Shown here one piece after another: positions 3,283 to 22,181 of a stretch of 30,419 nucleotides of DNA (position 1 is its first letter; each line of letters opens with the position of its first letter). The stretch is from a virus. Below the pieces are notes generated by a model. That model searched no databases. It had not been told where the DNA came from and worked only from the letters and a program-made list of their open reading frames with translations. The stretch spans positions 1 to 30,419 of IMG/VR virus record IMGVR_UViG_3300013100_000329; one strand, 5' to 3'. Position numbers and translations under genes: made by a program.

Positions 3283-3792
3283 TCATGACCGCACTCCATC
3301 CGCCAAACGGTACTGCTGGATCAGATCGTCAACACGGTGTTCACGCTGCCCATACCCTGCACCAGGCAGGCTCGCCCAGATGTTCCGGCACTTTGCGATA
3401 GCGGATTCGACCTGGCCTGCATGCACGTCCGATAGTGCGCGGCATTCGCGGATGTGCTGCAGAGCCAGCAGGTCCTGACTGATCGGACTGAAATCAGGCA
3501 GGGCCAGTAGACTTCGGTAGTACGGCCAGTCCCTCAACATTTGCTGGTAACGGCCCGAGGCATTCGAGGTCAGCCCCCTACTGTTGATGACCTTCGACGG
3601 ACGCCCTTTTGCGAACGGATGATCACTGAAGTCCTTGAAGATCTCGGGTTTCATGTCGACTCCTGTAACAATGACGTCATAGCCATCCAATACAGTGACC
3701 GGCGATCTACTGGTCCCCTCAGACCAAGCAAGCATGTCGAGAAAGGCGAGCGCGTTACTGCTGCCCGCCTGAGCAACTGAAAGTTGTGACAT
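3283..3792 (-). CDS. R: Lambda R-like endolysin (lytic transglycosylase)
   Basis: Soluble phage endolysin that cleaves the glycan strands of peptidoglycan. The 169-residue product aligns along nearly its whole length with phage lambda R. Shared segments are FLDMLAWSEGT with the catalytic Glu, GYDVIVTG, the DFSDHPF region, GRYQQM, DFSPISQDLLALQ and NIWASLPGAGYGQ. Lambda R is 158 residues, so this is full length. The frame stays open upstream to 3939, but ATG 3792 is chosen because a GGAG lies just before it and homology begins shortly after. No signal peptide is visible, so export through the holin hole is expected. It lies downstream of the tail fibre and before the spanins; the holin is encoded far upstream at 13896-14240. 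Confidence 0.93.
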   Translation of the reverse strand: MSQLSVAQAGSSNALAFLDMLAWSEGTSRSPVTVLDGYDVIVTGVDMKPEIFKDFSDHPFAKGRPSKVINSRGLTSNASGRYQQMLRDWPYYRSLLALPDFSPISQDLLALQHIRECRALSDVHAGQVESAIAKCRNIWASLPGAGYGQREHRVDDLIQQYRLADGVRS

Positions 3793-10290: not shown

Positions 10291-12603
10291 TTAATTCCTG
10301 CGTTGGGAGAGCACGCGCATTGCACTACGGCGCCCAGAAACAAGTCTCCCGCCAGAGGGCGGGAGATTGGGTGGTTCGACTGGTGTTGTTGGTTCCGGAC
10401 TAGCCCCGTCCGTTTCGGGATCGGGACCTGTCTCGGCTTGATCGGGCTCGGGTGGGTCAAACAACGCCCCTTGACGGATCTGTGCATCAAGCCCTGCCCA
10501 ATCTTGCTCCCGCATCAAGTGCGTTTTCAGGGAGCGGGCCGCGTGCAATGCATACGTTTCACAGTCGGTACCTTCGTTCGGCTGGCCGGCCTTTTTCTGC
10601 CAGACCTTGCGGTAGTGGTGTCGCCGGCTGGGCGCCTTCACTTCGGCGGTGATTTGGCGGAAATAATCCGGACGCACCGTTTTGTAAAAGTGCATCCGAC
10701 CAGGGCCATCACCGGTCAACGGCAAACGCCCCTCAATCCACAGATCCTTGGCTCGTGACGTGCCGACGATATAAGGGCGAAGGCCGTACTTCGAGGCCTT
10801 TTGCTCTTTGTCCGTATCGACACCCTGCCGAGGGGCGCTAAAGATCTCCCGGCGCTCATCGTCGCGTGTGTTACCGCGCTCGCTCGCGCCCTTGATCGCC
10901 ATCACACCATTGCGCTGATGCTTACGGCAAAACGCATACGCCGCGTCCTGGGTGATGGTGCCGTCCGAGGTATCCAGCGAAGTAGCCAGCACTCTCAGCT
11001 TGGCGCCGCAGGCGTGTGAAATCGGCGCAAACAGCAACTTTTCCAGATCAAGCCAGACGCCCTGGTCGGGCAGTACCACCTCGCCGTAAATCTCGCCCCA
11101 GTAGATCAGCCAGGATTCCTCGCCTCGGCCCCAGGCCCGCATCACCACCGCCAGGCGATCGTGCTGCACGTCGACTCCGGCGGTGATCACCAGGCCCCCC
11201 ATGGGCACAAACAACTCCGGGTAGTCCTCTGCCCGCTCAGCCAGTTTATCGGCCTCAGGCAGGTCGGATTTGTACTCGTAGGCACGGCCCTGTTTCTGGT
11301 TGACGAACTTGATCAGCAACGACAGGTTGCCAATCGACGCCTGGTGTTCGGCGTTGAGTTTCTCTCGCACGATATCGGCCAGGCTGGTACCGGGGAGGCA
11401 CGCGTACAGTTCGTTCAGCTCAATGAATCCAGCACGACCGGCAAAGGGCTTGGTGGGCACCCAGCCGCAATAGGGGTCGCCGGCATCAATCGCATTGAAC
11501 ACCGTGTTGCGGATGTTCTCTTTGCGCTGGTAGTCGTCCCAGCAACTGCCACAGTGCGGGCAGGCGTAATAGGCTGTATCCGGGAGCGCTCGGCCATAGA
11601 TTTCATGCGGTTGATCAAGTATTTGAGCAAGCTTTACGGCCCCCTTCCCAAGACGCTTTAAATCCTTGACCAGATCGCTATTGTCTCGAAGCCAATCGTC
11701 ATCACGTTTATCTAATGCCTCGAAATGGGACTGTTCGTCCTGCTCAAACCATTTGATGTGCTCAAAATCCAAGACATGAGCGCTGCCACAGTCATGGCAA
11801 ACAATCGGCAACACCCGGCAATCGGTCTGGGCCAGGCGCGCTTCGGTCTTGCTTGCACCCTTAATCGCCGGCGTACCGCCCACCAGCATTTTAGAGCCGG
11901 GGTAGCGCTTGCCGCGCTCCTCCAGCAGGGCGATCGCATCACCCTGCCCCTTTACGTCATCGCTGGTATCGTCCGGTTCTTCCACCACCGATAAGCCCAC
12001 CGACGACGTGGACTTAACGTTGCCGGGTGAGTTCGACGCTACCAGTTTGAGGAACCCGCCCGGGAAGGTCTTATGGTCCCAACGGTTCCCCGAGGTGCGG
12101 CTCACATCGACCGGCATCAATTTGGCCACCTCAGTGTTCGCCGTCACGCCAAACTTGAGCTTTTCATCGTGGAAGTTTTTGCCGTCTTTTTCCTTGGCAA
12201 ACAGGATCATGATCGGGCGCGGCAGGTGATGGATGAACTTGAACAGGTAGCCGATCAAGAACCACGTCCAGCCGATCTGCGCCGCCTTCATCAGGTCGAC
12301 CTCACTCACCCGGGGATCATCCAGGGCAGCGGCAACGCCGAGGAAGTAAGGCGTGTAGTGGAAATCGTACAGGCCGTGCAGCACGCCGCTTTCAGCGGGC
12401 AGGTAAAACTCGGTGCTCAGGTAGTGCGCGGTCGGGATGTCACGCGGCGGGTTGAATTCCCCCGCCGCTGCCAACAAGCTTCGCGCCAAGTTTTCGCGCG
12501 TAACCTGCAATTCGCTCGGTTGTAGGTCCAGCAATTTTGGCCACCACTGATCGATCAACCGTGACTTTTTGCACGCTCTCGATTTCCTGAATGATGCGTT
12601 CAA
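10291..12603 (-). CDS. terL: Terminase large subunit, lambda gpA family
   Basis: DNA-packaging motor with ATPase and cos-cutting nuclease. The roughly 730-770-residue product follows the GpA family: FYLPAESG near the N-terminus, the divergent Walker A region MKAAQIGWTWFLIGYL, and VVEEPDD in the Walker B zone. A Cys-containing insert (CHDCGSAHVLDF) and a second pair (ACPHCGSCW) follow. The nuclease part contains TAGVDVQHDRL, as in other members. The C-terminus is Pro-rich. The true start is uncertain: the open frame begins at a TTG at 12603 and overlaps terS by 164 bases, and homology starts near residue 45-50, so a TTG around 12480-12540 may be used. It looks intact. Confidence 0.92.
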   Translation of the reverse strand: MNASFRKSRACKKSRLIDQWWPKLLDLQPSELQVTRENLARSLLAAAGEFNPPRDIPTAHYLSTEFYLPAESGVLHGLYDFHYTPYFLGVAAALDDPRVSEVDLMKAAQIGWTWFLIGYLFKFIHHLPRPIMILFAKEKDGKNFHDEKLKFGVTANTEVAKLMPVDVSRTSGNRWDHKTFPGGFLKLVASNSPGNVKSTSSVGLSVVEEPDDTSDDVKGQGDAIALLEERGKRYPGSKMLVGGTPAIKGASKTEARLAQTDCRVLPIVCHDCGSAHVLDFEHIKWFEQDEQSHFEALDKRDDDWLRDNSDLVKDLKRLGKGAVKLAQILDQPHEIYGRALPDTAYYACPHCGSCWDDYQRKENIRNTVFNAIDAGDPYCGWVPTKPFAGRAGFIELNELYACLPGTSLADIVREKLNAEHQASIGNLSLLIKFVNQKQGRAYEYKSDLPEADKLAERAEDYPELFVPMGGLVITAGVDVQHDRLAVVMRAWGRGEESWLIYWGEIYGEVVLPDQGVWLDLEKLLFAPISHACGAKLRVLATSLDTSDGTITQDAAYAFCRKHQRNGVMAIKGASERGNTRDDERREIFSAPRQGVDTDKEQKASKYGLRPYIVGTSRAKDLWIEGRLPLTGDGPGRMHFYKTVRPDYFRQITAEVKAPSRRHHYRKVWQKKAGQPNEGTDCETYALHAARSLKTHLMREQDWAGLDAQIRQGALFDPPEPDQAETGPDPETDGASPEPTTPVEPPNLPPSGGRLVSGRRSAMRVLSQRRN

Positions 12604-12937
12604 GGCCGCCCAGGTATTCCCGGTTTGCGAAACTGGCCCAGTCGATAAGCACCCGATCAGCCTCGCCAGCCGGAATCAATGAACGCAGTTTTTCGTGATA
12701 CAGCAGGCGACCGTTAGCGGCCTTGACTCGGCCTTCATCGATCCGCACAGCGTTAAGTTCTTCCAACTGGCTGCCTCCGCGCCCAGCGGCTTTTGCGCGC
12801 AAGTCGCGGATGTAAGCAATCCGGATTTCATCTAGGCAGGCTGTCTGCCAATCGCTTATGCCGATTCCCTTCAGCACGTCGCGGGCGTTTCGCTCGCTCA
12901 TGTCCAGGTGATCAGCAATTTCACGCTGTGTAGGCAT
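12440..12937 (-). CDS. terS: Terminase small subunit
   Basis: A 165-residue DNA-recognition subunit of the packaging terminase. It starts MPTQREIADHLDMSERNAR, a helix-turn-helix of the Nu1 type that binds cos or pac DNA, followed by a charged helical region likely to mediate oligomerisation and contact with the large subunit. ATG 12937 is chosen because GGAG lies six bases before it; a second ATG two codons upstream is too close to that site. It is immediately followed by terL. The dyad-rich gap upstream (12938-13144) is a candidate binding site. Confidence 0.85.
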   Translation of the reverse strand: MPTQREIADHLDMSERNARDVLKGIGISDWQTACLDEIRIAYIRDLRAKAAGRGGSQLEELNAVRIDEGRVKAANGRLLYHEKLRSLIPAGEADRVLIDWASFANREYLGGLERIIQEIESVQKVTVDRSVVAKIAGPTTERIAGYARKLGAKLVGSGGGIQPAA

Positions 12938-13144
12938 GCTCATCTCCAAGGTCGGGACTAGGAAGCGGAACCCCCTACGTCGGGTTGAATCTGCAAAAAA
13001 GTCGGGGTTCGAATTACCCCGATTGCCCCGCTGACTGGAAGGACCCATTGATTTTGGGTCGCAGGTCGACCTGTTAAGCAAAACCTACGACAAATCATTG
13101 AAAATAAATGGTTTTTAGAAAAAATTCACGATCCGGACAAGAGG
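12938..13144. other. Dyad-rich gap upstream of terS, candidate cos region
   Basis: This 207-base gap has three dyads: CGGGGT/ACCCCG (13003-13008 and 13016-13021), GACCCA/TGGGTC (13042-13047 and 13055-13060) and the perfect palindrome CAGGTCGACCTG (13062-13073). In lambdoid phages with gpA-type terminases, cos and the terS-binding sites lie just upstream of terS. The overhang sequence could not be identified by eye. Confidence 0.4.
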
Positions 13145-13876
13145 TCAGCCTCGCTCCATCTCCCGTACAAGGGCACGTCGGAACAGCGGCTCGAACTCGG
13201 CCTCGACGACGCGATTGGCTAACCCGTAGAAGTCAAAGCGCCGCCGATACGTCGGACGCTTGACGAAGATCAGAATGGGCCGTGCCCCGTTGCCGATCCG
13301 CTGCCAGATACCCAAAGGGCCAGTGCCGTTGCCAGGTCGACCCACGAAATAGTCCGGTGCGTTGCGGTTGCGGCGTCGGCTACGCTGAGTGCGGTTGGCC
13401 ATGAAGCCCGACACCCGCTCAGCTGCTCCGAGTGTGGACAGGATCTGTACGATCTGGCCGCGACTGATGTTGCCATTGCCATCCATCATAGCGCGCCGAC
13501 CAGGGACGGCGTACATGTCCGCTGGCATCAAGCCGTAGTGGATCAGCGCTTTCTCCAATCGCTTGTGTGGTCGGTTGCCACCGTCAATGTGGACCGGCAG
13601 GTACTTGGACGCGGGCACGCCTGAGCTGGCTTCGTCCTTGATCCACACACGGGCAAACAGGCGGCTGGCCGTGGCACTGCGCTTGAAGACCGAGTTGAGC
13701 GTCCACCGTGTGGGCCTATCGAACACTCGCTCAAGCTCGACCTTTTCAGCTACCTGGACGCGTTCGGCGGTGAAGGTCAGCGCTTTGGCAGCTGCTATTG
13801 GCACCTTCGACTTGCTGAGCCCACGCATCTCCCTGACGATCTTGTCGATGTTGTCACGCATCTCAAGTCGCAACAT
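13145..13876 (-). CDS. Phage structural-type protein, minor tail Z-like
   Basis: A 243-residue protein between holin and terS. It begins MLRLEMRDNIDKIVREM, continues with an Ala-rich helix (VPIAAAKALTFTAERVQ), and has PASKYLPVHIDGG, PGRRAMMDGNGNIS and a C-terminal RPILIFVKRPTYRRRFDF followed by a helix. This order resembles the minor tail or tail-completion proteins often labelled lambda Z-like, but the position before terS is unusual for that. ATG 13876 has GAGG about nine bases upstream and avoids overlap with the holin; ATG 13882 is the alternative. It appears intact. The function call is tentative. Confidence 0.6.
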   Translation of the reverse strand: MLRLEMRDNIDKIVREMRGLSKSKVPIAAAKALTFTAERVQVAEKVELERVFDRPTRWTLNSVFKRSATASRLFARVWIKDEASSGVPASKYLPVHIDGGNRPHKRLEKALIHYGLMPADMYAVPGRRAMMDGNGNISRGQIVQILSTLGAAERVSGFMANRTQRSRRRNRNAPDYFVGRPGNGTGPLGIWQRIGNGARPILIFVKRPTYRRRFDFYGLANRVVEAEFEPLFRRALVREMERG

Positions 13877-13895
13877 GGTCATTGCCTCTAGATGT

Positions 13896-14240
13896 TTATG
13901 GTCCAGCGTCACCGTTGGCTTGTGCTTCACGCAGACCAAGGCGCTTGGCCGCCCAGCGCTCGTACAGCCCGATCGCTACGTCTGCACCTGCCATGGCGGT
14001 CAAGCATCCCAGTGCCCCGGAGGTCCAGATCGACATGCCTGCCGCATACAGCAGCATGATGGCCGACACTCCGCACACCACGCAGGCGCCGGACCGGAGG
14101 GCCAATCGGCGGATCAACGCCCAGCCACGCGCACCCTCCTTGTCCGCTCGCCACATCTCGCCCGACACACCGCCCACCAGGGCCAGGACGATCACTAACC
14201 AGATCGGCATTTCTGCCAGCGCTTGCTGTTCGTTCGTCAT
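13896..14240 (-). CDS. Phage holin (holin family 3/LydA-like)
   Basis: A 114-residue membrane protein that should form the lesion releasing the endolysin. Three hydrophobic segments are visible: PIWLVIVLALVGGVSG (about 12-27), CVVCGVSAIMLLYAAGM (about 53-69) and a weaker Ala/Gly/Leu-rich one (about 74-92). Charged loops and a polar C-terminus (KRLGLREAQANGDAGP) complete the holin layout. It is the third gene of the late operon, far from endolysin and spanins at the operon end; this split is common in Pseudomonas prophages. A terminator lies just upstream, so expression should depend on antitermination. Confidence 0.78.
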   Translation of the reverse strand: MTNEQQALAEMPIWLVIVLALVGGVSGEMWRADKEGARGWALIRRLALRSGACVVCGVSAIMLLYAAGMSIWTSGALGCLTAMAGADVAIGLYERWAAKRLGLREAQANGDAGP

Positions 14241-14259
14241 TGCCTTGGCCCCTTAAACG

Positions 14260-14286
14260 AAAAAGCCCTGCACTGGGCAGGGCTTG
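14260..14286 (-). terminator. Intrinsic terminator after the 74-residue gene
   Basis: On the minus strand, stem AGCCCTGC/GCAGGGCT (14277-14284 and 14264-14271) with a five-base loop is followed by a T run. It lies between a small gene and the holin, so it must be read through for lysis genes to be made. Confidence 0.85.
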
Positions 14287-14304
14287 AATGGGAAGTTAGT
14301 CAGA

Positions 14305-14529
14305 TTAGGTTTGAGGGACTGGGACCTCATCAACGCTAACGCAGTGCTCAATATCCGTGATTTTCTGGAGAGCTTGCTCAGCAGTTGAATACGCGCCAAA
14401 CATTCGCCCTTGATAAAAAACAACCCATGCAAATTGGATGTCCGCTTCACCAGAATGCCCAACCACCAACGTCTTGAATCTTTCAGCCAAGTCGTCGACA
14501 TGCATCTGTGCCATGCCACGCAAAACCAT
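14305..14529 (-). CDS. Small hypothetical late-operon protein
   Basis: A 74-residue protein starting MVLRGMAQMHVDDLAERF. ATG 14529 is preceded by AAAAAGGGGAGAGCGTC, a strong ribosome site, so the longer frame up to 14643 is rejected. The middle reads FAWVVFYQGRMFGAYSTAEQ, like a small alpha-beta fold. No membrane segment or known family is recognised. Terminators lie on both sides (14260-14286 after it, 14730-14756 before it), so it is made only when the upstream terminator is read through. Confidence 0.6.
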   Translation of the reverse strand: MVLRGMAQMHVDDLAERFKTLVVGHSGEADIQFAWVVFYQGRMFGAYSTAEQALQKITDIEHCVSVDEVPVPQT

Positions 14530-14729
14530 GACGCTCTCCCCTTTTTTAGTCAGAGGCCCGTTTTTTTTCGGCCTTCGACAATGTGAGCGCAAAAAAACCG
14601 ACTCAATGGTCGGGTGAAGACCACTCCTCAGTCCAGCCCCCAAATGAGAGGGATGGAGGGCGGACTGAGGAATGGCGGCGCAAGCATATCAGAGCTTGCT
14701 GAAAATTCATCATCGCGTCGACGCGCCAA

Positions 14730-14756
14730 CAAAAAGCCCTGCACTAGGCAGGGCTC
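14730..14756 (-). terminator. Intrinsic terminator after the DUF2513-like gene
   Basis: On the minus strand, the stem AGCCCTGC/GCAGGGCT (14748-14755 and 14735-14742) is followed by TTTTT. It is nearly the same sequence as the terminator at 14260-14286, which suggests duplication together with a small gene. Confidence 0.85.
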
Positions 14757-14770
14757 AAAGACGTTGTTGT

Positions 14771-15070
14771 CTAGTGGATGGGAAGCTCACTGCTGCGCAA
14801 ACTCAGCCTTTTACTTCTGTCGAGATAGTTATATCCCGCATTGGTGACGCGCTGGATACGTATATCCGGAGTTTCCCCTTCAACATTGATACAACCCAAA
14901 TCTACAAGCAGCTCGATATGGCCATCCACGACTACACCGGACCAATCAACACACTCGGTGCGGGAGAATTTGCTGCGTATATCCTTGGCCGATAAATCGA
15001 GCTTCCAGTCATCGGAGTCCTTGATGCAGACCTCTAGAATTTTCACCAACAGCCTCTGATCTCGTTCCAT
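14771..15070 (-). CDS. DUF2513-like phage protein
   Basis: A 99-residue protein beginning MERDQRLLVKILEVCI, with a central HIELLVDLGCINVEG and the closing IQRVTNAGYNYLDR. This is the pattern of DUF2513 proteins, which look like small winged-helix proteins. It is the first gene after the late promoter, and ATG 15070 follows GGAG by eight bases. A terminator precedes it (15126-15154) and another follows it. A regulatory role is possible from the fold, but nothing in the sequence shows a target. Confidence 0.65.
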   Translation of the reverse strand: MERDQRLLVKILEVCIKDSDDWKLDLSAKDIRSKFSRTECVDWSGVVVDGHIELLVDLGCINVEGETPDIRIQRVTNAGYNYLDRSKRLSLRSSELPIH

Positions 15071-15125
15071 TTCTCAGCTCCAAAGGAAAATTGTCTGTAC
15101 GAAGTAGTACGTCTGAGGAGAAATG

Positions 15126-15154
15126 AAAAAACCCGGCACAAAGGCCGGGTTTTT
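15126..15154 (-). terminator. Intrinsic terminator just downstream of the late promoter
   Basis: A strong stem AACCCGGC/GCCGGGTT (15130-15137 and 15144-15151) with A and T runs on both sides can terminate in either direction. On the minus strand it comes about 35-60 bases after the expected start of the late transcript, like lambda tR'. Transcription into the late genes would need antitermination, consistent with the Q-type gene just upstream. Confidence 0.88.
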
Positions 15155-15194
15155 GGTGAGATCGCTGTTTGCGTACCTCTTTGAACATGACTGA

Positions 15195-15223
15195 TTTATA
15201 CCCCTTCAGTCCGGTGGCAGCAA
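15195..15223 (-). promoter_or_regulatory. Candidate late promoter
   Basis: Reading the minus strand, TTGCTG (15218-15223) and TATAAA (15195-15200) are separated by exactly 17 bases. The minus-10 matches consensus at five of six positions; the minus-35 is weak, as expected for an activated promoter. The PrtN-like repeat array lies immediately upstream. A dyad GTGGCAGC/GCTGCCAC (15214-15221 and 15233-15240) overlaps the minus-35. Transcription would run into the late operon. Confidence 0.6.
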
Positions 15224-15240
15224 GAGCTCAGCGCTGCCAC

Positions 15241-15289
15241 CCTGCAATCAACGGTAATCAACGGCAATACGCCTGCAATCAACGGACAT
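15241..15289 (-). promoter_or_regulatory. Tandem P-box-like repeats (PrtN binding-site candidate)
   Basis: On the minus strand the sequence falls into consecutive 10-11 base units: ATGTCCGTTG, ATTGCAGGCGT, ATTGCCGTTG, ATTACCGTTG, ATTGCAGGGTG (the last running a few bases past the array). The P-box recognised by pyocin activator PrtN is remembered as tandem ATTGnn(n)GTnn(n). One unit matches exactly and the others closely. AATCAACGG on the plus strand starts at 15246, 15256 and 15277, so the sites share one helix face. The array ends about 18 bases before the minus-35, and the prophage encodes a PrtN homologue at 21861-22181. Confidence 0.65.
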
Positions 15290-15595
15290 ATAACGTCACT
15301 GGCTATAGCGCCGCAGGCATTGACCCTCCTGTCCCACTGATTTCAAGAGAGGCGCGACGACTCAAACACCGATAAATCAAAGCGGCGCCCCTCCGTCCTA
15401 CCATTTATTACTTTTTCCATGTAAAGGGAGAATTAATAAACGCTGCGCGTACGCGCGCGCGTATGTGGGTGTGTGCGTCACATGCGGGAAAGATGCAAAA
15501 ACGGTGGGACGGTGGGCCATCATCAATTAACACGCGGCGCGCAGTTGACCCACCCGCCAAAACACTAGCAGGCCGTACAGGGACGCGCCGCGCCA
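15290..15595. other. Gap between Q and the late control region
   Basis: No convincing gene was found here. The stretch contains a 24-base alternating purine-pyrimidine run at 15444-15467, rich in CG, and GC-rich sequence just downstream of the Q stop. A Q utilisation site could lie near the promoter but cannot be recognised by eye. A minus-strand frame at 15408-15692 overlaps Q and has no phage character. Confidence 0.4.
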
Positions 15596-15943
15596 TCAAG
15601 CTACGCGCTCCAGCAGCATGCCTGCGATCTCCAGATGTGCCGAGTGTAAGCGCGCATAGAACTGCGTTCGACCACACCCGCAGTGCGCCCATTTCTGGCG
15701 TTCTACGCTTTCACGGTTCAGGTAATGCTCCTGCACCACTTGGGCCAGATGCCAGGACAGACGCTTGTTTACGATCACCTCAATGTCTGCACTCCATGGC
15801 AGCAGCATCTTCGAACCGCCGCGCGTGCCTCGAATCAATTCCCCCCGGCAATCGATCAATTGACCCAACATACTGCTGGCAGATCCGTTAGGGCCGCCGC
15901 CACCGTGCATATCGAGCGCCCACAATTTCAACATCTCATCCAT
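15596..15943 (-). CDS. Q-like late antitermination protein
   Basis: A 115-residue protein of the phage antiterminator Q family (antitermQ type), which modifies RNA polymerase at the late promoter so that it passes terminators. Recognisable parts are an N-terminal MLKLWALDMHGGGG, a helical middle (SADIEVIVNKRLSWHLAQVV) and a C-terminal sigma-like helix-turn-helix containing CGCGRTQFYARLHSAHLEIA. It is the last gene of the early leftward operon and lies directly before the late promoter and three terminators, the classical Q position. ATG 15943 is used; a TTG at 15955 with GGAG eight bases upstream, overlapping the primase stop, is a serious alternative. Confidence 0.75.
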   Translation of the reverse strand: MDEMLKLWALDMHGGGGPNGSASSMLGQLIDCRGELIRGTRGGSKMLLPWSADIEVIVNKRLSWHLAQVVQEHYLNRESVERQKWAHCGCGRTQFYARLHSAHLEIAGMLLERVA

Positions 15944-15951
15944 TTCCGGGA

Positions 15952-18174
15952 TCAAAATGCGGTCTCCTGCCTGGGCACCGCCGACCTTCGCTTCCACTCC
16001 GGCGGTTTCACATACTCATAGCTGCGCACACCACGCACACAGTTACCCTTGCGCCGGCGGGGCCAATTCATCCGATGCATAATCTTGCCGATGCGCATTT
16101 GCTCGGGTCGACCCCAGTGGCTTGGATCGATGTTAAGCGCGTGCTCAAGCAAGTGCGCGCCTGTCACCGTATCGCCAATATGCTTGTCGGCTAGGTAGCC
16201 GACCACCAGGTCTTCCCACATATCGGCCTGATAACGCTGATCCTGCTCAGCGGCAAAAACATCAGCTTCATCGCGCTCCACCCACCATATGTCACCCGCG
16301 CGAAAACAGGCTAACGCTTCGGCCCAGAGTTGATCACGGTCGGCTCGCAAGCCCTCAAGATCAACTTTGGTACACATCACCGGCCAGTAACGGCGGTTGC
16401 CCGTATCGTCCTTCAGGTACTCATCCTGGTTGGTCGTACCGATAAAAACGCTCTGCCGGAGCACATCCAGCATCCGCCGGCCATAGCTCTCGCGGTAGGT
16501 ATCGATGGGCGATGAGACGAATTGCTTGGCCTTGGTCGACTCTGCCTTGTTCAATGAGTCCAGCTCGGCCATCTCCACAATCCACTTGCCCCGGATCGCC
16601 TGATAGGCGTCTTTGCTGCTCAGATCAAATGACGTATCCATGAACCACTCGCCGCCCAATACCCGCGCAGCCGTGGATTTCCCCTCGCCCTGCAAGCCTT
16701 CCAAAATCAACATTGAGTCAGCCTTACAGCCAGGTCGACACACGCGGGCCACCGCAGAAATCATCCAGCGCTTGCCCACCTTGCGGGTGTACGAACTATC
16801 CTTAACGCCCAGCCGATCCTGCAACCAACGCTCAAGGCGTGGCAGGCCATCCCACTCAAGGCTTTCTAGATACTCGCGCACCGGGTGGTAAGCGTTGTCA
16901 TTCGCCACCGCACTTACTGCCTCAACCACGTGGGCAGTCTTCACCCGCAGCCCGTACACATCAGCAAGCCACAGCGCCACCCTAATATCGTCCAGATCAC
17001 TCCAGTCGCCCTTGCCACCACCATATGGAGGCGTACGTAACTTGCGGGTCTTTGAACTGAACGAATCCCAGGCGATTACCCCGGCCCAGCGTTTATCATT
17101 ACCCAGAATCAATGCCACATTGAATGGATGTACGATCAACCCGCCTTTTTCGGAATACTGCAGCTTCTCGCGCCACCCCTCATCAGCAGACGGACGCACC
17201 ACCGCTAGTGCCTGACGGCGCACCGTATCCAGGCCCTCAGCGCAGTGAAGATCGTTGAAATCGGTCCAGCCGTCTTCCCGGTTGTTGTCGAATACCGGCA
17301 TAACCACCTGGCCACCAACCACAACCGCCGCATTGCTAGCCTTGATTACCCCCGCGTTATACGGGTGCCCATTCACTACAGTCTTCCAATCATCATCTGC
17401 GCAAAACACCAGCTGCCGGCCGGGATACTTTGTGCGCATGGCTTGTGCCACCGCCAACAGGTTGCCAGCATCAAAGCAAATACATACCGTCAACGAGGTC
17501 GCCATGTGCAGGCTGGCGCCGGTCGCGTATCCCTCTGCAATCAGAATCACATCGCCCGGCTCAGGCTCCGGGCCGATCAGGTGAAATGCGCCTTCCTTCG
17601 CCAAACCATACGGCCAATAGGTTTTGTTCCTGCCCGTAGCTGCTTGCTTTTCGGGATACAGCACCTGCAGGCCGACGATATCGCCTTTCACATTGCGCAT
17701 CGGCACAAAAGCCGTACCGCTTTTCGCCTTGTAACGCAGACCGATCCCGACTACCCGCTTGGCATCCAAATAACGCGATCCGCCCTTTTCAGATAGGTGC
17801 TTCCACATACCAGCAGCGCGCCGGGCGGCAGTGCGATGCTTTCGATCCTCGGCCAAGGAGGCCTTACGCTGACCCTCCTCGGCCCTGGCGCGCATCACCG
17901 CTCGATCTTCAGCGCTCAGCCGCCCGCCCTTAGGCTTGATCTTCTGCCAACTGCCTTTTTCACCCTGACGCCAGTCGCCAAACGCGCCGCAATACAGTGT
18001 TTTGCCGTCACCAGTCAGATGGTCATAGATCACATACCAGCCCGTTTTCTCCGGGGCCTTATCACCGTCGCACTCGCAACGCGTTCGCTTACCAATCACC
18101 AGTGGCGTTTCTGGTTTAAGTCCGTAGCCCTGCAACTGGGCCAACACATCATCAAGTAGTTCGTGATTAGTCAT
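15952..18174 (-). CDS. Toprim primase / VapE-type helicase replication protein
   Basis: A 740-residue bifunctional protein for initiating phage DNA replication. The N-terminal half carries a Toprim primase core: AEGYATGASLHMA (Glu214 region), CADDDW with acidic residues 260-262, and TDFNDLH at 304-310. The C-terminal half is a VapE-type superfamily III helicase with Walker A GLQGEGKST at 493-501, an acidic segment IVEMAELDSL at 532-541 and the conserved IGTTNQDEYLKD. ATG 18174 is preceded by GGGG at suitable spacing and overlaps the upstream stop, so the open frame to 18237 is not used. The stop is followed directly by Q. It appears complete. Confidence 0.92.
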   Translation of the reverse strand: MTNHELLDDVLAQLQGYGLKPETPLVIGKRTRCECDGDKAPEKTGWYVIYDHLTGDGKTLYCGAFGDWRQGEKGSWQKIKPKGGRLSAEDRAVMRARAEEGQRKASLAEDRKHRTAARRAAGMWKHLSEKGGSRYLDAKRVVGIGLRYKAKSGTAFVPMRNVKGDIVGLQVLYPEKQAATGRNKTYWPYGLAKEGAFHLIGPEPEPGDVILIAEGYATGASLHMATSLTVCICFDAGNLLAVAQAMRTKYPGRQLVFCADDDWKTVVNGHPYNAGVIKASNAAVVVGGQVVMPVFDNNREDGWTDFNDLHCAEGLDTVRRQALAVVRPSADEGWREKLQYSEKGGLIVHPFNVALILGNDKRWAGVIAWDSFSSKTRKLRTPPYGGGKGDWSDLDDIRVALWLADVYGLRVKTAHVVEAVSAVANDNAYHPVREYLESLEWDGLPRLERWLQDRLGVKDSSYTRKVGKRWMISAVARVCRPGCKADSMLILEGLQGEGKSTAARVLGGEWFMDTSFDLSSKDAYQAIRGKWIVEMAELDSLNKAESTKAKQFVSSPIDTYRESYGRRMLDVLRQSVFIGTTNQDEYLKDDTGNRRYWPVMCTKVDLEGLRADRDQLWAEALACFRAGDIWWVERDEADVFAAEQDQRYQADMWEDLVVGYLADKHIGDTVTGAHLLEHALNIDPSHWGRPEQMRIGKIMHRMNWPRRRKGNCVRGVRSYEYVKPPEWKRRSAVPRQETAF

Positions 18175-19454: not shown

Positions 19455-20111
19455 ATGAATACTCCAGCGGAAAGAATCGCATACGCCATTTCCAAGTGCG
19501 GAAAGAAAGCCAGCGTCTTGGCCATAGAGTCCAACCTGAGTGCTGCCAGAATTAGCCAGTTAGCCCAGGGAGACGGGAGCCTCAAGGCTGAAAATCTTTT
19601 CTTATTCGCACGCGCTACCGGGTTCTCAGCACAGTGGCTTGCCGAAGGCATTGGGGACAAATATGACGCCGGTGCCCTCGAGGAGGGCCATGTGCTGATT
19701 CCCCAATTCACCGCCAAGGCGGGTGCAGGCCCGGGTCACACAAACCACCACATAGAAGACCTCGGCGGCCTAATGTTTAGGAGAGACTGGCTTAGCCGAA
19801 TGGGCTTGAAGGAAAAGAACCTCAAGGTCATCTACAGCACAGGAATGAGCATGTTCCCGACCATTGCTGATGATGATGTGCTGCTGATTGACGAAGGCCA
19901 GCGGGAGCCATTGAACGGTAGAATCTATGCAATTCAGCGCCCAGACGGAGACATCAGCATCAAGCGCTTAGTCCACACGCTCACCAACGGCTGGATAATT
20001 CGAAGCGACAACGAGGACAAACGCGCTTATCCGGATGAGAGCGCTACCGATACAAGCATTGGTCATCTACTCATCATCGGACGGGCCGTATGGCACGCCG
20101 GCCCCCTATAA
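19455..20111 (+). CDS. cI: CI-like repressor with S24 self-cleavage domain
   Basis: A 218-residue lysogeny repressor. The N-terminal helix-turn-helix contains VLAIESNLSAARISQLAQGD. The linker has the Ala-Gly cleavage segment AKAGAGPG at about 87-94. The C-terminal LexA/S24 peptidase has Ser132 in GMSMFPT and Lys170 in ISIKRL, so RecA-stimulated self-cleavage after DNA damage is expected. No ribosome site precedes ATG 19455; the bases are the operator palindrome, so the mRNA may be leaderless as for lambda CI from PRM. It looks complete, which implies the prophage is still SOS-responsive. Confidence 0.92.
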   Translation: MNTPAERIAYAISKCGKKASVLAIESNLSAARISQLAQGDGSLKAENLFLFARATGFSAQWLAEGIGDKYDAGALEEGHVLIPQFTAKAGAGPGHTNHHIEDLGGLMFRRDWLSRMGLKEKNLKVIYSTGMSMFPTIADDDVLLIDEGQREPLNGRIYAIQRPDGDISIKRLVHTLTNGWIIRSDNEDKRAYPDESATDTSIGHLLIIGRAVWHAGPL

Positions 20112-21416: not shown

Positions 21417-21864
21417 CACCCTACTGATCGAACTACTGAACCTGCCTGAAGAACGTCGTACGGCTGAGAAAATTCTTGCCAATCTCACCCTGGCCGCAAC
21501 TGCCGCCGACGTTTCCCTCACCATCACCGGCGCACCGCTGCAAATCGAGCACCTACAACTGGCGGCCGCTCTCGACCAACTCGTGATTGATCTCGGCCCC
21601 AACTACCGTGCTCGCGCCATGCTGCGCCTTGGCAATGGCATTGAAGGCGTTGAACTGGGTGCCGTTCTCGAACCGCTAGACAGTACTTCACCACTACCGC
21701 GTTTCGTGGCGTTTGCCAGCACGGCACGTACAGCACTGGCAGCCATCAACCGAGACATTCGAGCGAGCCACCAACCCCACACTAAAGAACCGACACAACG
21801 TAAATCTGGAAAGCTGACGCTCGGCACGCTCAAGGCGCAAGTAGATAAGGCAAATGCAGCATGA
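21397..21864 (+). CDS. Hypothetical phage protein
   Basis: A 155-residue protein starting MDRKLIDTLLIELLNLPEER at ATG 21397, preceded by GAGGGAACACAC; the frame open from 21361 lacks such a site. The sequence is mostly helical with a Leu-rich N-terminus and a Lys-rich tail (KSGKLTLGTLKAQVDKA). The stop overlaps the PrtN start in ATGA. No domain is recognised. Confidence 0.65.
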   Translation: MDRKLIDTLLIELLNLPEERRTAEKILANLTLAATAADVSLTITGAPLQIEHLQLAAALDQLVIDLGPNYRARAMLRLGNGIEGVELGAVLEPLDSTSPLPRFVAFASTARTALAAINRDIRASHQPHTKEPTQRKSGKLTLGTLKAQVDKANAA

Positions 21865-22181
21865 CGGCCTCCGTACAGCGCGAACTGCGCCTGCCGATAG
21901 CGCCGAGAAGTCAGACCGTTGACCTGTTGTACCGAACGCTCGGGGATCTGCTCGTACCCGTCGAACAGGTACGTGAACGCTACTTCAGCAATCTCAACCA
22001 GGACAACTTCACTCGTGCACTGACAAGCGGCCGTGTAGCGCTACCCATCACGACTCTGGATACCAGCGCCAAGCGCCCCCGCTTTATCGCCATCCGCCAT
22101 CTGGCCATCTTCATTGATACACAGGCAGATGCTGCGGACGAGGAGCTGACAAACACTCAACCCCAGCCAGAAGAGCGATGA
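21861..22181 (+). CDS. prtN: PrtN-like pyocin/late-gene activator
   Basis: A 106-residue protein of the PrtN family. LLYRTLGDLLVPVEQVRERY (about 23-42), FTRALTSGRVALPITTLD and RPRFIAIRHLAIFID correspond in order to the pyocin activator of P. aeruginosa. PrtN binds tandem P-box repeats and turns on pyocin genes after DNA damage, when the repressor PrtR is cleaved. Here the CI-like S24 protein would be the PrtR counterpart. A matching repeat array lies upstream of the late promoter at 15241-15289. The C-terminal tail is acidic and polar. It is translationally coupled to the gene before it. Confidence 0.82.
   Translation: MTASVQRELRLPIAPRSQTVDLLYRTLGDLLVPVEQVRERYFSNLNQDNFTRALTSGRVALPITTLDTSAKRPRFIAIRHLAIFIDTQADAADEELTNTQPQPEER

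Follow-up and report, generated by a model that had tools for sequence, protein, structure and literature searches.

A PrtN-type repeat array, a late promoter and a candidate antiterminator gene in a Pseudomonas prophage and in R- and F-pyocin loci

Gene organization around the late promoter

The window, that is the whole stretch of DNA analyzed, is a 30.4-kb IMG/VR virus record. Its region carrying the lysogeny genes, the late promoter and a repeat array matches a prophage of Pseudomonas aylmerensis S1E40. The arrays are identical, the PA0613-type proteins are 100% identical and the PrtN proteins 99% identical. On the minus strand, towards lower coordinates, the genes encode a Cro-like protein (19395-19168), a CII-like protein (18890-18381), a primase (18237-15952) and a 119-residue protein with a TTG start codon (15596-15955), which belongs to the PA0613 family (NF051483, phrog_4300) and is a candidate antiterminator. 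The array and promoter region comes next. It is followed by the beginning of the late operon (10291-15070), with two small open reading frames, a holin (13896-14240), a minor tail or neck protein and the small and large terminase subunits.

An S24-type repressor resembling CI and PrtR is encoded on the plus strand (19455-20111). About 1.75 kb past its end and on the same strand lies the gene of a 106-residue PrtN homologue (21861-22181). The presence of this homologue in the prophage had been proposed from the sequence alone, and PF11112 recognized it with 85.7 bits for a cut-off of 24.2. The protein is 58% identical to PrtN of the R-pyocin locus OQ658366; its fold is a generic winged helix with no specific match. 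Operators for CI common to the cro-cI gap and to the gap after cI were also considered. The candidate matched at 13 of 16 positions, no better than in shuffled sequences, and was rejected.

A P-box-like repeat array lies 5′ of the late promoter

The array occupies positions 15237-15290 on the minus strand. Four units are clear, ATTGCAGGCGT, ATTGCCGTTG, ATTACCGTTG and ATTGCAGGGTGG, starting at 15279, 15268, 15258 and 15248, respectively, with spacings of 11, 10 and 10 bp. A fifth unit, ATGTCCGTTG, found near 15290, is degenerate. One of the four clear units follows ATTGnn(n)GT strictly and each of the other three carries one mismatch. When the window was shuffled 200 times with its dinucleotides preserved, a four-unit chain of this kind arose once. 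The repeat array close to ATTGnn(n)GTnn(n) that the original prediction placed in front of a promoter is therefore confirmed, on the minus strand.

Comparison across relatives makes a stronger case for the array than the window alone. We used 32 IMG/VR loci having a PrtN relative and 57 further Pseudomonas loci collected by scanning genomes with a PA0613-type protein; non-redundant relatives numbered 24 to 25. Tandem units were found 5′ of the same promoter core in nearly all relatives. In 24 non-redundant ones, the TT of each unit peaked at positions -103, -92, -81, -70 and -59, which corresponds to an 11-bp register. The TT power at 11 bp reached 0.134 in the arrays of the relatives, as compared to at most 0.034 in 2000 shuffles. 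Five helically phased units had been predicted. This description holds for the family, as the 11-bp TT register, and in the window four units are clear and one is degenerate. As expected of a repeat array, the number of units differs between near-identical phages (L008 and L009). The unit sequence also varies by group, being CCGTTGATTG in the window, GGGACGAGTTC in phage U5 and of the CATTCACC type elsewhere.

At S-pyocin genes, 60-100 bp separate the P-boxes from the downstream ribosome-binding site (PMC4905994). The array stands at about 150 bp from the ribosome-binding site in the window and at about 165 bp in the case of the R-pyocin locus, outside this rule because a leader terminator intervenes. 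A stretch rich in CGCGCGCG and GTACGCGC (15440-15475) lies upstream of the array; many relatives, for example L029 to L035, show it in this position too.

The promoter core resembles the AlpA-dependent alpB promoter

The late promoter (15195-15223, minus strand) consists of a -35 hexamer TTGCTG (15223-15218), a 17-bp spacer and a -10 hexamer TATAAA (15200-15195), with a predicted start near 15188. The weak -35 and good -10 elements next to the array thus stand where they had been described. Phages and pyocins share a conserved core, TTGCTG-N17-TA(T/A)AAA. In the P. aylmerensis genome, a mismatch-free core occurs only beside the two PA0613-type genes.

Previous studies have shown that AlpA binds GGGACG-N5-GGTA at positions -25 to -11 of the alpB promoter, that a -10-like pause element, CACGAT, covers positions -1 to +5 and that a terminator begins at +54 (PMC7969949, PMC9371919). 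We located the alpB promoter of strain PA7 through its AlpA element and compared it with all 43-mers of the window, both strands included. The late promoter was the best match (25 of 43 positions, the runner-up having 24), and the -35 hexamer, the spacer element, the -10 hexamer and the pause were all in register. The spacer element of the late promoter, CGGACT-N5-GGTA (15199-15213, minus strand; -25 to -11), agrees with the AlpA-binding element at 8 of the 10 specified bases in the same register. The -10-like pause hexamer is CATGTT (15184-15189, minus strand; -1 to +5), the counterpart of CACGAT. Among relatives, positions -25 to -20 of the spacer mostly read CGGA(A/C/T)T, and GGTA or TGTA comes next after N5. 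A pattern search that did not require the pause found CAnnnT at -1 to +5 in all 24 non-redundant loci. The product of the PA7 alpB gene itself (L109, about 1561-2088, region of G001:C1:4726457) is holin-like and similar to the first late gene of some of the phages, such as those of loci L033 and L034.

A perfect dyad, GGTGGCAGC-N11-GCTGCCACC (15213-15241), lies between the array and the -35 hexamer and overlaps the latter. As judged by eye from the sequences, nearly all phage relatives, as well as a Halomonas phage, retain the form TGGCA-N15-TGCCA. In locus L035, the two arms covary to GTGGCG/CGCCAC. The dyad is absent from the R-pyocin promoters listed, whose sequences were also read by eye. 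Reading TGGCA...TTGCT as a sigma-54 promoter was ruled out by the wrong spacing.

A terminator is retained in the leader

A strong intrinsic terminator is found in the leader of the late operon (15121-15154, minus strand), its stem beginning at about +35. A pattern search that also demanded the core detected a leader terminator in 84 of 92 loci, and its start ranged from +38 to +51 in the relatives. Loci L061, L063, L096 and L080 have differing stems at this position, which indicates that termination rather than sequence is conserved; in relative L051, no leader terminator could be recognized. In R-pyocin loci L040 and L088, a separate terminator stands right behind the PA0613-type gene and the leader terminator is retained too. 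Therefore, termination of that operon does not require the latter. Covariation gave no support to a conserved first hairpin of the leader RNA, and this possibility was rejected.

The gene upstream of the promoter encodes a PA0613-family protein

The 119-residue protein obtained 171 bits with the NCBIfam model NF051483 'PA0613 family' (cut-off 100) and is found in phrog_4300, labelled 'function unknown'. In the parts of the open-access literature consulted, PA0613 is mentioned as a table entry or as part of a regulatory or pyocin locus range, with no mechanism proposed. We modelled the family protein with AlphaFold using 46 alignment rows, phage-collection rows being omitted. The model (pLDDT 77, a moderate value) is all-helical and has a C-terminal helix-turn-helix resembling sigma region 4. 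A Foldseek comparison with the PDB gave 59 matches, none of them significant (E 0.5-4.5). Sigma region 4 came on top, 21Q was at rank 6 (E 1.2, TM 0.45) and the two AlpA complexes occupied ranks 15 and 26. The predicted fold is compatible with antitermination and also with a sigma-4-like activator.

Sequence profiles of the family revealed no homology to AlpA (hhalign probability 0.4%) and matched neither 21Q nor any PDB chain. AlpA and 21Q likewise have no profile similarity to each other (PMC9371919). Weak matches were obtained with Sigma70_r4_2, with DUF1492 and with the phrog_36 and phrog_248 regulators. The homologue from the Halomonas phage is annotated 'antitermination protein'. In the stretch of that phage that was read, the dyad and a leader terminator are present and no PrtN is annotated.

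The array follows PrtN and the core follows the PA0613-type protein

A PA0613-type gene was present in all 29 PrtN-relative IMG/VR loci, of 32, that are not cut by a contig end. In 16 genomes, a PF11112 protein was found within about 10 kb, on the same contig, for 16 of the 20 full-length PA0613-type genes. Contig ends cut off three of the other four genes, and the one of P. protegens FD6 is a genuine exception. In this complete genome (L081), the PA0613-type gene is accompanied by array, promoter and terminator, with no PF11112 protein. Many modules contain two PF11112 (PrtN-like) genes 0.7-5 kb apart (G027, G029, G030, G031, G032, G035, G036, G037).

Partial rank correlations were calculated with 38 distinct PrtN sequences. 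Array similarity correlated better with PrtN (0.37) than with the PA0613-type protein (0.18). The core promoter showed the opposite preference, with 0.62 for the PA0613-type protein and 0.40 for PrtN. Because shared ancestry inflates all four values, only their contrast was used. Overall, array, PrtN and late promoter co-occur, and these sequence comparisons give good support to the view that a PrtN-type array would control phage late genes.

R- and F-pyocin promoters are built in the same way

The gene order of R-pyocin locus L040 (OQ658366) is that of the window: PrtN, PrtR, a DksA-like protein, the PA0613-type protein, promoter, terminator and holin, baseplate genes coming after. This record is deposited as 'Pseudomonas phage sp., complete genome' though it is an R-pyocin locus, and its PrtN is annotated as an excisionase. 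Downstream of the promoter, GGGAATCGGGCGGTAAAAAGTAGTCATTCTTG, stands the same CCCGGCC...GCCGGGTTTTTT terminator as in the window. We then searched the PA7 genome for the core with up to three mismatches. Three sites were obtained, one at the R-pyocin operon, one at F-type tail genes and one unrelated; the reversed control gave 0. The second promoter is located 13 kb beyond the R-pyocin promoter and has its own array and leader terminator. It lies between an endolysin gene and the F-type tail genes (L121, about 3395-3500; G001:C1:775894). Upstream of S-pyocin genes, no clear P-box array was seen at six PF06958 loci of P. aeruginosa-group genomes, so that these loci are uninformative about P-boxes that lack the core.

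The link between pyocin and prophage regulation is thus deeper than originally proposed, since the R- and F-pyocin promoters are constructed alike. Cross-talk with chromosomal pyocin loci had also been suggested as possible. It is not supported. The two modules of the host genome differ in unit sequence; in the second one, which has a PA0613-type gene of its own, the unit is of the CATTCACCGG type and clearly distinct. As far as unit sequences can tell, this speaks against a free exchange of PrtN.

Discussion

The idea that a pyocin activator controls the late genes of this prophage is likely to be right. As simple activation it is incomplete, in view of the leader terminator, the spacer element, the pause and the PA0613-family neighbour, none of which had been described. 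We propose, as the most economical explanation, a two-key late switch, to which we give a probability of roughly 0.6: PrtN, on the array, would fire the promoter and the PA0613-family protein would carry the polymerase past the terminator. From what is known of the families, SOS cleavage of the CI/PrtR-like repressor would allow PrtN to be made. PrtN would then cover the phased array, from about -102 to -49, and activate the weak promoter. The polymerase would pause at -1 to +5, and the PA0613-family protein, positioned on CGGACT (-25 to -20), would load onto it. The loaded polymerase could pass the terminator at about +35 and reach the late genes, among them those for holin and terminase. If a PA0613-type protein were lacking, transcripts would not extend beyond a short leader RNA. 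Control of the R- and F-pyocin operons would depend on the same two keys.

Several observations weigh against the two-key switch. None of the fold matches reaches significance, and the model itself is of moderate confidence. The antiterminator role is inferred from a weak resemblance in fold to 21Q and to AlpA, neither of which shows sequence homology to the family. The top fold matches, sigma region 4, would also suit an activator. The terminator might serve to end the early operon as well. The FD6 genome has a PA0613-type gene and no PF11112 protein at all, no leader terminator was recognized in L051, and the alpB match exceeds its runner-up by one position only.

PrtN might act by itself, either as an ordinary activator whose promoter outruns the terminator or as the antiterminator, the PA0613-family protein being unrelated. 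The model of the pyocin literature requires PrtN and PrtR only (PMC8609362, which cites Matsui 1993), and the 60-100 bp between S-pyocin P-boxes and the ribosome-binding site leave little room for a leader terminator (PMC4905994). However, the spacer element and the pause are separate from the array, the core tracks the PA0613-type protein more than PrtN, and the Halomonas phage combines a PA0613-type gene with the dyad and the leader terminator where no PrtN is annotated in the stretch read. We consider that PrtN acting alone is unlikely. Slightly less probable still is that the PA0613-family protein is a late activator of the ArpU/DUF1492 type, with the terminator just shielding late genes from early transcription. 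A terminator placed 3′ of the late start must be crossed by every late transcript, the R-pyocin loci own another terminator for the early operon, and the pause hexamer is invariant at its key positions; these points argue against such an activator, despite the sigma region 4 matches by fold and the weak ones to Sigma70_r4_2, DUF1492, phrog_36 and phrog_248.

That the PrtN homologue is an excisionase and the array a recombination arm site appears very improbable. The label comes from phrog_1300, and phage records are annotated likewise. However, another excisionase-like gene (phrog_1266, DUF4224) overlaps the integrase start in the window, prtN and the array are 4.7 kb and 11.6 kb away from the integrase, and the array keeps a fixed register with the promoter. 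Moreover, PrtN and the same promoter are found in R-pyocin loci, which are not integrating phages.

The proposed two-key switch can be compared to three known systems. With the PrtN/P-box control of P. aeruginosa pyocins (PA0610-PA0614), it shares the PF11112 activator, the S24-type repressor and tandem 10-11 bp ATTG-type units 5′ of the promoter. It differs in that the array of the window would drive the entire late operon of a phage, including terminase, that a CII-like gene and a primase gene lie in between, and that the dyad over the -35 is absent from the R-pyocins. Like the late promoters of lambdoid phages controlled by Q (lambda, 21, 82), that of the window has a regulator gene just 5′, a spacer element in the place of the Q-binding element (QBE), a pause, a leader terminator and a late operon behind it. 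In contrast, no sequence homology to Q was detected and the weak fold similarity concerns 21Q only. We know of no PrtN-type array at lambdoid late promoters. Antitermination of alpBCDE by AlpA shares the spacer element at -25 to -20 with N5-GGTA, the pause at -1 to +5 and a nearby downstream intrinsic terminator, as well as an SOS-linked repressor and a holin as early target (PMC9371919). However, AlpA has no sequence homology to the PA0613 family, and its target promoters need only positions -37 to +5, with no P-box-like array (PMC7969949). The holin-like product of alpB suggests that the alp system, too, is derived from the late switch of a phage.

Extended to pyocins, these considerations would make PA0613 the antiterminator so far missing for the P. 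aeruginosa R- and F-pyocin operons, and also for a widespread prophage family of Pseudomonas. PrtN would only initiate, every full-length pyocin or late transcript would require PA0613 to pass a leader terminator, and the protein would represent a new antiterminator family without sequence homology to Q or AlpA. We hold this extension to be evenly balanced. Pyocin and tailocin production, explosive lysis and late expression of Pseudomonas prophages are currently explained by PrtR and PrtN alone. If true, the proposal would add to pyocin control a second obligatory step, consisting of the leader terminator and the PA0613-family regulator. It would explain why PA0613 is retained in the regulatory block and would give an unnamed family a function. 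Pyocin regulation would then be a phage late switch preserved intact.
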